DNA of 64,000 bases, from the NCBI RefSeq assembly GCF_025766255.1, contig NW_026516664.1, positions 744,001 to 808,000 of the forward strand. Direction: 5' to 3'. Shown piece by piece: positions 3,366 through 64,000 of the stretch. The notes beneath the pieces are model-generated. The model was not told where the DNA came from and did no database searches. It was given only the letters and a program-made list of their open reading frames with translations. This DNA is from Zychaea mexicana. Lineage: Eukaryota > Mucoromycota > Mucoromycetes > Mucorales > Lichtheimiaceae. Within the stretch, counting starts at the first letter, position 1; the number at the start of each line of letters is the position of its first letter. The translations under genes were made by a program, and so were the position numbers.

Positions 3366-4946
3366 ATGGCACATGGCACAGAGCAACGTGAACGTAAACA
3401 GAATCTCGGCTATGTAATACGTTCCGGAATTGCAGGTGGCATGGCAGGCTGTGTGGTGAGTGATCTACCATTTCTATTTCCACGGCTTACTTTTCTTTTG
3501 CACGGTGTGTTGTTGACAATGAAAAAAAAAATAACTGTGGACAATTAGGCCAAGACTGCAATCGCACCATTGGATCGAGTCAAGATTCTATTTCAAGCGC
3601 AAAATCCAGTGTTTGAAAAGTATGCAGGTATGGGTGCTCTTTTTCTTTCTTCTTTTGCTGGACACCACTTTAGCTTGTAGTTGGCTAAATAAAAATGCAA
3701 CACTGCATGCCTGTAATATCCATCATAGGAACGTTTACCGGCGCTTTTAAAGCCGGACGGGATATCATCAAGCACACTGGCGTTTTGGGACTATTTCAAG
3801 GCCATTCGGTGACGTTACTACGAATATTTCCATATGCATCGATCAAATTTGTTGCCCTTGAACAGTTTCGCGCAGTATGTTATAGTCCTGGGTTGCCATG
3901 ACTTTTACAAGGAGGCACATACCACACAGAAAAAAATAGGCTCACGCACAGGGCACTCTATTAGCTATTAATACCAACAAAGGCACAAGAGACAGCAGCA
4001 AAGCATTTCTTTGCTGGATCACTTGCAGGTAATGGGAATAAGCCTAGTATACGTTCACGTTGCAAGAAGAAAAATTGACAACTAGATACTACCCTCATGT
4101 GGCCGACAGGAATGACATGTGTATTATTTACCTATCCATTGGACCTTGTACGTGTCCGGATGGCCTATGTGGTCAAGCAAGAGAACCGAAAACGGCCTAC
4201 TTTGATCGATACCTGCAAACAAATATACAAAGAGCCTGCTGCAGCCTCGTCCACGCATCTGTTGAACTTTTACCGAGGATTTTTACCAACGGTGGCAGGA
4301 ATTGTGCGTATATTTATAAATGTTTAGATGCGAACTTGACACAAGTATAAAAATACTCATATACATTTCTCCTTTGTTGCGAATTAGATACCGGTAAAGC
4401 AGTGACATTGTTACTCAGTATATCAACAACCATACTAGTTTTTTATTAACAAAGACATACATAGTACGCAGGCGTCTCTTTCTGGACATATCATATCATG
4501 ACTCAAGCGTTTCGTTTCGATCCGACCATTTCACCCTATACACGCGCATCTAGAATAACAGACCCCGAAAATCGACGTATGATGGAGAAACCGCCATTGA
4601 AAACATGGGCTGAATTGTGTTGTGGTGGTGTCTCTGGATTGGTTGCCCAGACAAGTAGCTACCCATTAGAGGTAAAGTATAAGCGCGTGAATATAGTGAC
4701 GGTCAGAACACAAGGGATGCTTAAACGTATTCTATTTAGGTGATTCGACGGCGAATGCAGGTCGGCGGATTGCTTCATCCAAACAAGTTTGTAGGATTCA
4801 TGGAGACGGCTAGAAGCATTTATCAAACGAAAGGGTTCAAAGGGTTTTATGTGGGCCTGAGCATCGGATACATAAAGGTGGCTCCCATGATGGCCATCAG
4901 CTTTGCAGTATATGCCCGAATGAAATATCTTTTAGACATAGATTAA
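3366..4946 (+). CDS. LEU5: Mitochondrial CoA carrier Leu5-like (SLC25)
   Basis: Eight exons: 3366-3455, 3549-3627, 3729-3874, 3965-4028, 4110-4303, 4388-4393, 4465-4671, 4740-4946, giving 330 aa. It is a mitochondrial carrier with three repeats. The signatures are [11 protein letters not shown] in repeat 1, [12 protein letters not shown] in repeat 2 and [12 protein letters not shown] in repeat 3. The segments [31 protein letters not shown] and [18 protein letters not shown] match yeast Leu5 and human SLC25A16, which supply CoA to the mitochondrial matrix across the inner membrane. Exon 6 is only six bases (ATACCG, Ile-Pro) and is needed to complete the conserved GIIPYAGVSFW. An upstream in-frame ATG at 3321 would add 15 residues; I chose 3366. 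Confidence 0.92.
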
Positions 4947-60228: not shown

Positions 60229-60230
60229 GG

Positions 60231-60265
<35 letters not shown>

Positions 60266-60266
60266 G
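60229..60266. repeat. (TTG)n microsatellite, poly-Gln in the pseudogene frame
   Basis: About twelve TTG units (CAA on the coding minus strand). In the frame that continues from the upstream exon they code a poly-Gln run just before the GT64 start. Confidence 0.85.
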
Positions 60267-60509: not shown

Positions 60510-61408
60510 TAGGGGTCGCAATCTGACCCACGGGTCAAAACCGACCCGCGGGTTGAGGACGGGTCAACGGGTCGGGTTGATGCTTTTCTGACCCGCGGGT
60601 CAACCCGTCTAACCCTTGACCCGACCCGTTGACCCGTTGTGACCCGTGTATACATATGATATCTATGAGGTACTTGTATTCAAGTACTCAATTTTCTTGT
60701 TGGAAAGGATCATTATATTAAAGATGTAGTTGTCAATATGTCTGCTATAGAACTGTAACATAAAACGTACTTATATTCTTTTTCATTGTGGGATCATATT
60801 TTATATTCAAAAGTGTAAGATAAGTAAGCTATAAGCAATATATGTAATAGTAGTAAAGAAGTAGCAAAGTAAAGAAGTAGCAATAGTACAATGAGAATAG
60901 ACAATAGAGAGTGGCAGTGAGAGACGAGATTTGACAAAAGACGTAGAAGGAATTAAGAAAAGAGAAATGAAAGAAGAAGGAAGAAATGAAAAGAAAAGGG
61001 AAAAGGGAAAAGGATTAGGGGCATTTAAAGGAAGTCGATTTTTAACCACACTTTAACCATTATGCTTTCTTTAATGCATGTGAGCGCAAACGATTTCTTT
61101 TGCTATAGCACGAACCCTTTACCTTTAAGAATAATCACACAAAAGGTAGATATTGCTAGCAGTGCTAGGAATTTGCGTGCCATCATCTTAGAGAGCTGTG
61201 TATACATGTAGTTTTGCACTTCCAGTGCTCAAGCTCAGGTTGATTGACACCTCCTTTGTCACCAAATCAAAATCAGTAGTGACCCGTCAATCGAGTTTTG
61301 ACCCGTCGGGTTGAATGGGTCGGGTCAGGTCGGGTCAGTGTTTTCTTGACCCGTGGGTCAACGGGTCAGACCCTTGACCCGACCCGACCCGTCCAATTGC
61401 GACCCCTA
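60510..61408. mobile_element. Non-autonomous hAT-type DNA transposon
   Basis: The ends are perfect 13-bp inverted repeats: TAGGGGTCGCAAT at 60510-60522 and ATTGCGACCCCTA at 61396-61408. They are flanked by an exact 8-bp direct repeat GTCAGTAT (60502-60509 and 61409-61416), the target-site duplication size of hAT elements, whose ends usually begin YAGGG. About 150 bp inside each end is packed with CGGGTC/GACCCG motifs in both orientations, probably transposase-binding sites. The central ~600 bp is AT-rich with no transposase frame, so movement would need an enzyme supplied elsewhere. Because the duplication is perfect, insertion looks recent. It interrupts a GT64 coding exon. Confidence 0.85.
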
Positions 61409-62040: not shown

Positions 62041-62523
62041 GACTTGGCTCTTTCATGCATCAGATACTGACTAAGATGGTAGCCTCACCATGCAAAGTAG
62101 AAAGTTCGTGTTACAAATAAAGAGTAGAAAAGACCAACTTTTTATTGCTTTCATATAAGCTTTAGCCGAATTTTGTTCTTTTGCTTTAATTTTTTTATAC
62201 TTGGCCATAATGTCAAATGTAAAATGTTCCCATTGTTCTGATACTTTTACAACCAAAGGGGACTGGCCATAGTTATGATGATTTTAATGCAGTCTAGTAA
62301 CCCTAGATGACTAATTAGCTGAAATATGTCAGGATAGCCAAACTAATTTTTATTGAAATAATTCATGCACGAATGTCTTGGCATGCATACATTTAAATTT
62401 TTGAAAAAAAAATAAAAATTGAATTTTTTTTAAATATAAAAATAACACCACAGAATATAAAGCAAAATATATTTGTTATATTTTTTAGCACTCCAACAAA
62501 ACTACCCCAAACGAAAACACAAC
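62041..62523. other. AT-rich leader of the Rep-like gene
   Basis: No gene is supported; a 62-codon minus-strand frame (62071-62256) has no recognisable domain. It ends in A/T homopolymers immediately before the Rep reading frame. An imperfect palindrome around TAGTAACCCTA (62291-62317) is the only structure near the gene. Confidence 0.3.
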
Positions 62524-64000
62524 ATGGACCAAATGAACCTCCTCACATTTATTGCCATTATGGCTGAATTTATTCCTATTTTAGGAATAACATTGACGCT
62601 TTTAATAGAAAGAGCAAAGCATCTTACTGAACATCATCAAGATGTTAGTGAAAAAACAATTGCTGACCAACTGAGGGTCGAACTTGAAAAGGACCTCAAA
62701 AAGGCTAACATAACAAAGGAAGTAAGGGACGAGAACCGTACTGCAATAATGGGATGGATTAGGGCTTTTGCAAAATTCCTCAAATCCTCAAATCCTCAAT
62801 TTTACGATGCAATGTTAGAGGGTAACACCTCTGGTGCAGATTCCTCGCAGGGCGGCAAAGAATTCCGATTCCAAAATACTAAAGGGCTGTTCACATATAT
62901 TTGTAAGGACTTCCATTTAACAAAAGAACAAATCATGGAATGGTTTATAAAACATAAACGTATTGGTTATCGAATTGAAAAGGCAATTGCATGTGATGAA
63001 ATTGCACCAGAAACTGGTGAGAAACATGTTCATATATAGATACAAATGAATGAGTGGTTCGACACAAAAACAGCACATAAATTCTTTACTATCGATGGTG
63101 TTACTCCAAATATTAAACCAGGTGGTAATCCACAAAAGTCCATTAGCTACTGTATGAAAGGAAAAGATTATATTTGTTATAATATGGATCCAAATTATGA
63201 AGTTAAGACCAGAAAAATGCACCAACAGTTACTTGGATATCAATTAATTATGAAGCAGCTTAATATGCGGAAGGCTACCGAAATATATCCAGAATTGCTA
63301 TGGAAATATGATACTGTAAAATCAAATTTAAATTCTTACTTTCATGATGCAGATATGGAAAATAACCCTAGAAATAAATTACATATATGGTCTATGTTTA
63401 GGATTGAAACAATGTTTGGTGGTAAAAATAAGATACCACAATACTGGATTGTAGGTCCATCAAATGTAGGTAAGACATATAACATTGATGTATTAGAACA
63501 AGGTGGCCATCGAGCATATCTAATGAATAAAGAAAATGATTGGTCAGATTATAAGGATGATGATTATGATTTTATGTATAATGAAGAAACAGGTTCTGAT
63601 TTCAAATTAACATTTTTAAACCAAATGTTAGAAGGAACACGGTTAAAACTTAATGGCAAATTCACAAAGTCAATAACTAAAAAGAAAAATATGCCAATAA
63701 TACTGAATAGTAACTATATGCCGCACATGTTATACAAGAACAAATCAGTATATGAGTTAGAGCCAACGCTCAATCGTTTATATATTATCTATGTTGATAA
63801 GAACCGTAAAGGTCATATAATATGGAATCCATACACAATGAAGGTGAAGGATTATGAAAATAAATTCATGTATTATGAAAACATGGATATGTATGAGGAC
63901 TTATACAAAGGTGAATTCGAAAACGAATACCAAGATCAGCATACATTTATCCGTTATGCACATAATAGTGGTCAGGATGATATTAAAAAATATACACCGA
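62524..64000 (+). pseudogene. CRESS-DNA-type Rep (HUH endonuclease + SF3 helicase), interrupted, partial
   Basis: The frame runs from the ATG at 62524 to TAG at 63037-63039, then stays open in the same frame to the window edge, so the 3' end is unseen. In order: HUH motif I LFTY (62887-62898), motif II HVH (63025-63033), the TAG one codon later, motif III YCMK with the nicking Tyr (63148-63159), Walker A GPSNVGKT (63454-63477), an acidic Walker-B-like stretch (about 63565-63588) and motif C with Asn (63706). These are the rolling-circle initiator motifs of CRESS-DNA viruses and related plasmids. Motif I normally lies within ~20 residues of the start; here ~120 residues precede it, including a hydrophobic segment near the N-terminus. 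Base composition is much more AT-rich than in neighbouring genes. It is probably an integrated, decayed copy; stop readthrough is an alternative. Confidence 0.85.

Follow-up and report, generated by a model that had tools for sequence, protein, structure and literature searches.

The 64,000-nucleotide stretch of the Zychaea mexicana genome analyzed here (C1:744001-808000, hereafter the window; C-numbers denote contigs of the same genome and L-numbers loci whose sequence was read) ends within a gene for a Rep protein of the circular, Rep-encoding single-stranded (CRESS) DNA virus type. Our results indicate that this gene belongs to one degraded copy of a DNA transposon of 4.07 kb, which is present in about 60 copies or pieces and unites two mobility systems, namely a DDE transposase that pastes the element and a Rep that probably amplifies it as a circle. 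We consider this reading likely.

The gene product is a true Rep of the CRESS type, in which HUH motifs I to III are followed in order by a superfamily 3 (SF3) helicase with its Walker A, Walker B and motif C. The motifs named in the preliminary description of this DNA, which had been made from the sequence alone and had placed such a Rep in a fungal chromosome, are all present. The first histidine of motif II and the tyrosine of motif III are invariant in ten of ten sequences from fungi and metagenomes, as is Walker A, and the second histidine of motif II is retained in nine of them. The HUH part has the fold of viral Reps, its best structural matches being those of Vientovirus FB and geminiviruses, with other families left possible by the Foldseek and VIA match lists; the N-terminal extension is helical at residues 6-87 in a low-confidence model. 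Single-sequence searches of Pfam, PHROGs and PDB with the window pieces gave no match, and neither did PF00910 across the whole genome (26 of 26 candidates scored). Between lineages of the element, purifying selection acted on the HUH-SF3 part, the ratio of nonsynonymous to synonymous substitution rates (dN/dS) being 0.09-0.26 in nine of ten pairs from five copies; here and below, the copies compared are those with long open frames among the fetched loci, and their pairs are non-independent.

The element is dispersed. In the genome as a whole, which comprises 305 contigs and 50.3 Mb, the helicase (SF3) half of Rep matched at least 99 places with 66-100% identity (from the best 93 of 118 candidates) and the N-terminal part 86 places; these numbers, like those of DDE matches, count fragments rather than whole copies, and all copy counts are lower bounds. 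The pattern of the left terminus was found at 59 sites and that of the right-terminal hairpin at 62, each with none in the control, and the unit of about 4.07 kb has fixed ends. The further copies, repeated unit and termini that the preliminary description had proposed to look for are thus present. Most copies sit in differing flanks, and the copies are spread over many contigs, among them some of about 1 Mb; flanks are shared at a few loci, for instance C1 and C224, where the left junction is identical. Many Rep copies, that of the window included, contain stops. Several copies lie near contig ends (C224, C202, C49, C174, C271, C63 and others), which may reflect either assembly breakage caused by the repeat or a real subtelomeric bias.

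The closest relative of the Rep is a piece from Circinella minor (84% over a quarter of the query), followed by Rhizopus stolonifer; that of the transposase is also a Circinella minor piece (86% over 63%), followed by Mucor hiemalis. Further protein relatives lie on environmental (metagenome) contigs, and a profile protein search added three Circinella minor proteins and no others. Three scans of IMG/VR viral contigs, in which a metagenome relative, the window Rep and the ten-sequence alignment returned 3, 26 and 21 pattern stretches, yielded no confirmed relative.

In its full form, read in the C262 copy, the unit has 4067 bp and 30% GC. Rep reads inward from the left end and the transposase inward from the right end, so that the genes meet tail to tail. 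The ends GGGGACC... and ...GGACGCC recur beside differing flanks, and the terminal heptamers (GGGGACC versus GGCGTCC) agree at five of seven positions; an AT-rich inverted repeat of 34 bp, 91% identical, is subterminal (unit positions 147-179 and 3920-3953). Each of the two genes has a stop in C262. C53 has a Rep that is open over 621 amino acids, next to a broken transposase; C90 has an uninterrupted transposase frame of 494 amino acids, but the left half of that copy is lost. No capsid-like frame was seen in the 4067-bp unit, for which the lists of open reading frames (ORFs) give Rep, the DDE gene and antisense frames, the latter without a profile search. The capsid gene that the preliminary description had thought worth seeking is accordingly missing from these lists. 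The C262 copy abuts frames of a DIRS-like retroelement (L033:4861-7072; RNase H-like and tyrosine recombinase-like, by eye). The element is also a mosaic: in six of nine copies set against C262, identity is 69-82% in a 400-bp module around element positions 200-600 (L033:994-1393), which comprises the N-terminal extension of Rep and the sequence upstream, and mostly 93-99% in the remainder, suggesting that lineages of the element have recombined.

An exact 3-bp target duplication is present in 18 of the 31 copies with both flanks read, and it is never longer; shuffling the flank partners gave on average 1.6 and at most 7 duplications in 2000 trials. The 31 pairs include flank-sharing loci (C141/C13, C273:466/C273:480, C79:237/C79:257 and C46:71/C46:81), and the count becomes 16 of 29 once C13 and C273:480, which share both flanks with another copy, are dropped. 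Being the mark left by a DDE transposase that acts on the ends, the duplications argue for DDE-type integration and not for Rep-driven, Helitron-type or random viral insertion. The Rep-driven mobile element considered in the preliminary description therefore holds as to a mobile element bearing Rep and fails as to integration by that protein, since the duplications point to the DDE enzyme. Empty sites of two insertions (C79:94 and C79:257) were found nowhere else in the genome, where only separate halves occur: each half once for C79:94, and the right half twice for C79:257. The flanks of C79:94, when joined, form a single open frame of 373 amino acids across the joint. A 151-bp internally deleted copy in C106 (L096:296-446) keeps both ends and the hairpin, with TAT on each side; either it moved in trans or it was deleted after insertion.

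The C90 transposase scores 42.8 bits with DDE_Tnp_4 (cut-off 24.8) and 29.9 bits, also above cut-off, with Chromo, the chromodomain being C-terminal. Anatomy and duplications are directly observed; that the DDE_Tnp_4 enzyme performs the pasting we infer from its enzyme class. PIF/Harbinger transposons, which insert at a TWA consensus and carry a Myb-like protein, share with the present element the DDE_Tnp_4 catalytic domain and a 3-bp duplication. They differ in that the duplications here include CTA, ACA, ATG, AAT, CAT, AAG, CTC and TTT, with one TAA, and so depart from TWA, there is no clear terminal inverted repeat (TIR), the transposase ends in a chromodomain, and Rep occupies the place of the Myb-like protein. 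Related DDE-chromodomain elements of the same genome have no Rep match nearby. Beside some of them, in the place of Rep, lies a different small ORF (MVLLNxxILIC...CTYIHKRGKK.GHMC; L066:5033-5536, L066:4171-4698 and L069:3008-3535), with at most a sub-threshold Pfam match.

A hairpin, TTATAATCTA-TATTACAGCTAG-TAGATTATAA, at 4008-4039 of the C262 unit and 28 bp from its right end is a candidate Rep origin, as its sequence suggests. It is the sole perfect stem of at least 9 bp there (loops of 6-16), and its loop contains TATTAC, the hexamer that is nicked in CRESS genomes. Among 1000 shuffled elements, 2 had a TATTAC hairpin with one mismatch or none in ten within their last 300 bp. Nucleotide diversity is 0.012 at the hairpin and 0.035 elsewhere in the final 340 bp (16 distinct right ends among 22 aligned), and a diverged copy in C57 keeps TATTAC while a T-A pair is swapped for C-G. 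No such hairpin was found at the five Rep-less related DDE loci examined, two of which show AT-rich chance matches.

These features can be combined in a mechanism. The DDE_Tnp_4-chromodomain transposase would recognise the ends GGGGACC/GGCGTCC, excise the element and paste it with a 3-bp staggered cut, while the chromodomain may direct insertion to heterochromatin. After excision the ends would be joined into a circle, in which a stretch of about 460 bp that includes the hairpin would separate the divergently read Rep and transposase genes. The HUH-SF3 Rep would probably nick the TATTAC hairpin on this circle and copy it by rolling circle prior to re-integration, so that the element would amplify and not merely move. 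Small CRESS viruses have an ambisense layout, and the end-joined form would share it, except that a transposase would stand where the viruses have their capsid gene. More tentatively, and with rather less confidence than in the reading as a whole, we suggest that the element may lead a dual life as transposon and rolling-circle replicon, i.e., as a CRESS-like circle whose capsid gene has been swapped for a DDE-chromodomain transposase, Rep amplifying it from TATTAC and the transposase seeding it in chromatin.

Several results weigh against this reading. Neither a circle nor a transcript nor a transposition event was observed, and no copy that was read over its full length, C262 and C53 included, has Rep and transposase both open. 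As to the hairpin, the stem is perfect in one of 16 distinct segments (picked by TATTAC plus right arm), with one mismatch in 12 and two in 3; when any place in the element is allowed, 25 of 1000 shuffled elements contain a TATTAC hairpin of that quality (one mismatch or none in ten); the extra conservation is modest, 36 of 318 windows being equally low; and TATTAC is preceded by CTA and thus does not fit NANTATTAC, the stem-loop origin motif of CRESS viruses. Outside the HUH part the structural model of Rep is of low quality (model confidence, pLDDT, 54.9), the remaining HUH-SF3 pair has a dN/dS of 1.26, and the whole-frame median is 0.34 over 55 pairs of 11 copies, with two pairs above 1. 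The model of the transposase found no Foldseek match at E <= 0.001, chromodomains coming top and Tn5 transposase at 0.01, and a profile search of PDB sequences with the transposase likewise placed chromodomains first, with no significant DDE match. A 3-bp duplication is lacking at 13 of the 31 paired ends, some of them tandem or rearranged and the rest unexplained, and the internal deletion of the C106 copy could have arisen once it was already inserted.

Among the alternatives, the one that survives best, though we regard it as unlikely, is that a DDE transposon which moves by cut-and-paste alone has picked up Rep as a passenger, Rep having no function for the element. It would agree with the Rep-less DDE-chromodomain relatives, at least two of which carry a different small ORF, and with the stops in many Rep copies, the window copy among them. 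Moreover, the ends alone may be mobilised, since the 151-bp copy and the non-autonomous family B described below have similar ends without Rep, even if the deletion could postdate insertion. A mere passenger is hard to reconcile with the low dN/dS of the HUH-SF3 part in nine of ten pairs, with the invariance of the motif III tyrosine and Walker A in the ten fungal and metagenome sequences, and with a CRESS-like hairpin that accompanies Rep and is not seen at the five Rep-less loci. Because Rep is selected while the DDE transposase would do the pasting, its retention is most simply explained by replication, as in the transposon with a circle-amplifying Rep that we favor.

That the copies are instead a family of endogenous viruses, produced by independent or repeated CRESS integrations through Rep's own nicking, is very improbable. 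The protein is indeed a CRESS-type Rep, and amplified endogenous single-stranded DNA viruses are thought, according to a review, to integrate through Rep (PMC10175614). The fixed ends, however, do not coincide with the TATTAC site and are bordered by exact 3-bp duplications, the unit has a built-in DDE transposase, and no confirmed relative emerged from the three IMG/VR scans. With CRESS-DNA viruses (Cressdnaviricota) the element thus shares the HUH-SF3 Rep, the TATTAC loop and, if its ends are joined, an ambisense two-gene layout of CRESS size, but it is chromosomal, has transposon-type ends and target duplications, and shows no capsid-like frame. In place of the single endogenous virus-like element first suspected, we therefore recognise a dispersed transposon with a DDE_Tnp_4-chromodomain transposase.

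Still less probable is a Helitron-like rolling-circle transposon inserted by Rep. Helitrons make no target duplication, end in TC...CTRR and use a Pif1 helicase; the present element resembles them in combining an HUH nuclease with a helicase in a eukaryotic mobile element and in its subterminal hairpin near one end, and a genuine Helitron lies about 3 kb past the end of the window copy (L001:5091-9898, with a zinc-knuckle ORF, Helitron_like_N at 207 bits and PIF1 at 174 bits). It departs from them in its SF3 helicase, its DDE transposase and its ends GGGGACC...GACGCC, and the frequent 3-bp duplications in the main refute this alternative. Finally, an assembly chimera or contamination, which the preliminary description had named as fatal to its proposal and which the copies near contig ends might recall, as collapsed repeats often lie there, is scarcely credible because dozens of copies occur in many contigs, some of about 1 Mb, with duplications at 18 of 31 paired ends and the same left junction in C1 and C224, while each flank of the C79:94 copy is found once only and Rep and transposase alike have their closest named relatives in Mucorales.

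A comparable element has been reported in the black truffle, Tuber melanosporum, in which 42 Rep genes or remnants form a dispersed repeat read as a virus-derived, geminivirus-like transposon (Liu et al. 2011, PMC3198968). As reconstructed there, the unit holds an interrupted ORF for Rep and two transposase ORFs, both defective (one interrupted, one truncated), and has 37-bp TIRs and no obvious target site duplication (PMC3198968). In the literature searched, where other papers are known from passages, this is the sole earlier fungal unit with Rep plus transposase that we found. The present element is of the same kind, a dispersed fungal repeat joining a CRESS-type Rep and a transposase in one unit, with a different anatomy. 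As far as the published description goes, it is set apart by its 3-bp duplications, ends alike at five of seven positions, one DDE_Tnp_4 transposase with an attached chromodomain and a host in Mucorales, as well as by genes that are each uninterrupted in certain copies (though not seen so together in one copy), the selection measured on Rep and the origin-like hairpin. The initial view that such an element was not yet described needs tempering because of the Tuber case, published in 2011 (PMC3198968).

Some copies are joined head to tail through a recurrent 15-bp spacer (RATTTTAA..ATWCA), which copies in plain flanks lack. Five such joints are known, four from a pattern search (its other three matches being unrelated; control 0 forward and 1 reverse) and one in C194. 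With A for the Rep element and B for family B, C115 is an A-A joint, C53 an A-B joint, and C51 and C79 are B-A joints; the family B partner in the latter three rules out that all joints are simple A-A dimers. Family B is non-autonomous, about 1.15-1.19 kb long, has similar termini and adjoins Rep elements (L034:4838-6022, L113:3670-4821 and, truncated, L112:4588-4976); it lacks the TATTAC hairpin and has a small ORF of its own (MCMIACKPCMDKLND...). The outer flanks of C115 match (TCA/TCA), but since the spacer likewise ends in TCA, this does not prove that the dimer was inserted as a whole. The spacer, whose origin is unexplained, is possibly the footprint of a circular or tandem form; were the element indeed both transposon and replicon, these joints would be traces of its circle.

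The window copy itself is 3'-truncated (table 1). A GACCCG-rich element of about 0.9 kb cuts it off at C1:808766, and only the chromodomain end of the second, minus-strand gene is kept; the second part of its Rep ends at a stop at C1:808420-808422, 422 bases outside the window. The GACCCG-rich element, with inverted clusters at its ends, occurs at window positions 60510-61405, at L001:1767-2662 (inverted) and on the left side of L034; it flanks the Rep copy on both sides in opposite orientations and also truncates the C53 copy. With boundaries set by eye, it looks like a miniature inverted-repeat transposable element. A 33-bp unit (GAGGAGACTGTAAAAAAACATGCCAGCTTAT..) forms a tandem array directly after it (L001:2662-2857), and a (GTT)n microsatellite lies within short open frames at window positions 60230-60266. 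The RVB2 (TIP49) gene flanking the window copy is genuine, as had been stated of this neighbor.

Table 1. Features of the Rep element in the window, and sites of the 15-bp spacer
Feature	Position	Strand	Remark
Left terminus of transposon copy (GGGGACTGGCCATAGTTATGATG)	62258..62280	+	Sharp homology boundary versus other copies; 59 matches across the genome with up to 2 mismatches, none in the control
Element copy, part in window	62258..64000	+	Extends 766 bases past window to C1:808766
Rep N-terminal part: non-catalytic N-terminal extension and HUH motifs I, II	62524..63036	+	
HUH motif I (GLFTYIC)	62884..62904	+	
HUH motif II (HVHI)	63025..63036	+	
In-frame TAG, Rep broken in window copy	63037..63039	+	Directly after HUH motif II
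Rep remainder: HUH motif III and SF3 helicase	63046..64000	+	Frame continues outside window
HUH motif III including Tyr (YCMKG)	63148..63162	+	
SF3 Walker A (GPSNVGKT)	63454..63477	+	
SF3 Walker B region (YDFMYNEET)	63565..63591	+	
SF3 motif C including Asn (IILNSN)	63697..63714	+	
15-bp spacer sites	L008:702-716, L034:4823-4837, L113:4822-4836, L112:4978-4992, L100		

Rep-mediated integration is the presumed route by which multi-copy endogenous genes of single-stranded DNA viruses spread, and a 2023 review describes it as unconfirmed (PMC10175614). The ends and 3-bp duplications described here offer a concrete alternative, in which a DDE transposase does the pasting and a selected Rep is kept. 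The present element also returns to the subject of the Tuber case of 2011 and adds to it target duplications, evidence that Rep is selected, a candidate origin and a derivative with an internal deletion, and the transition from virus to transposon becomes testable in a fungus that is probably culturable.
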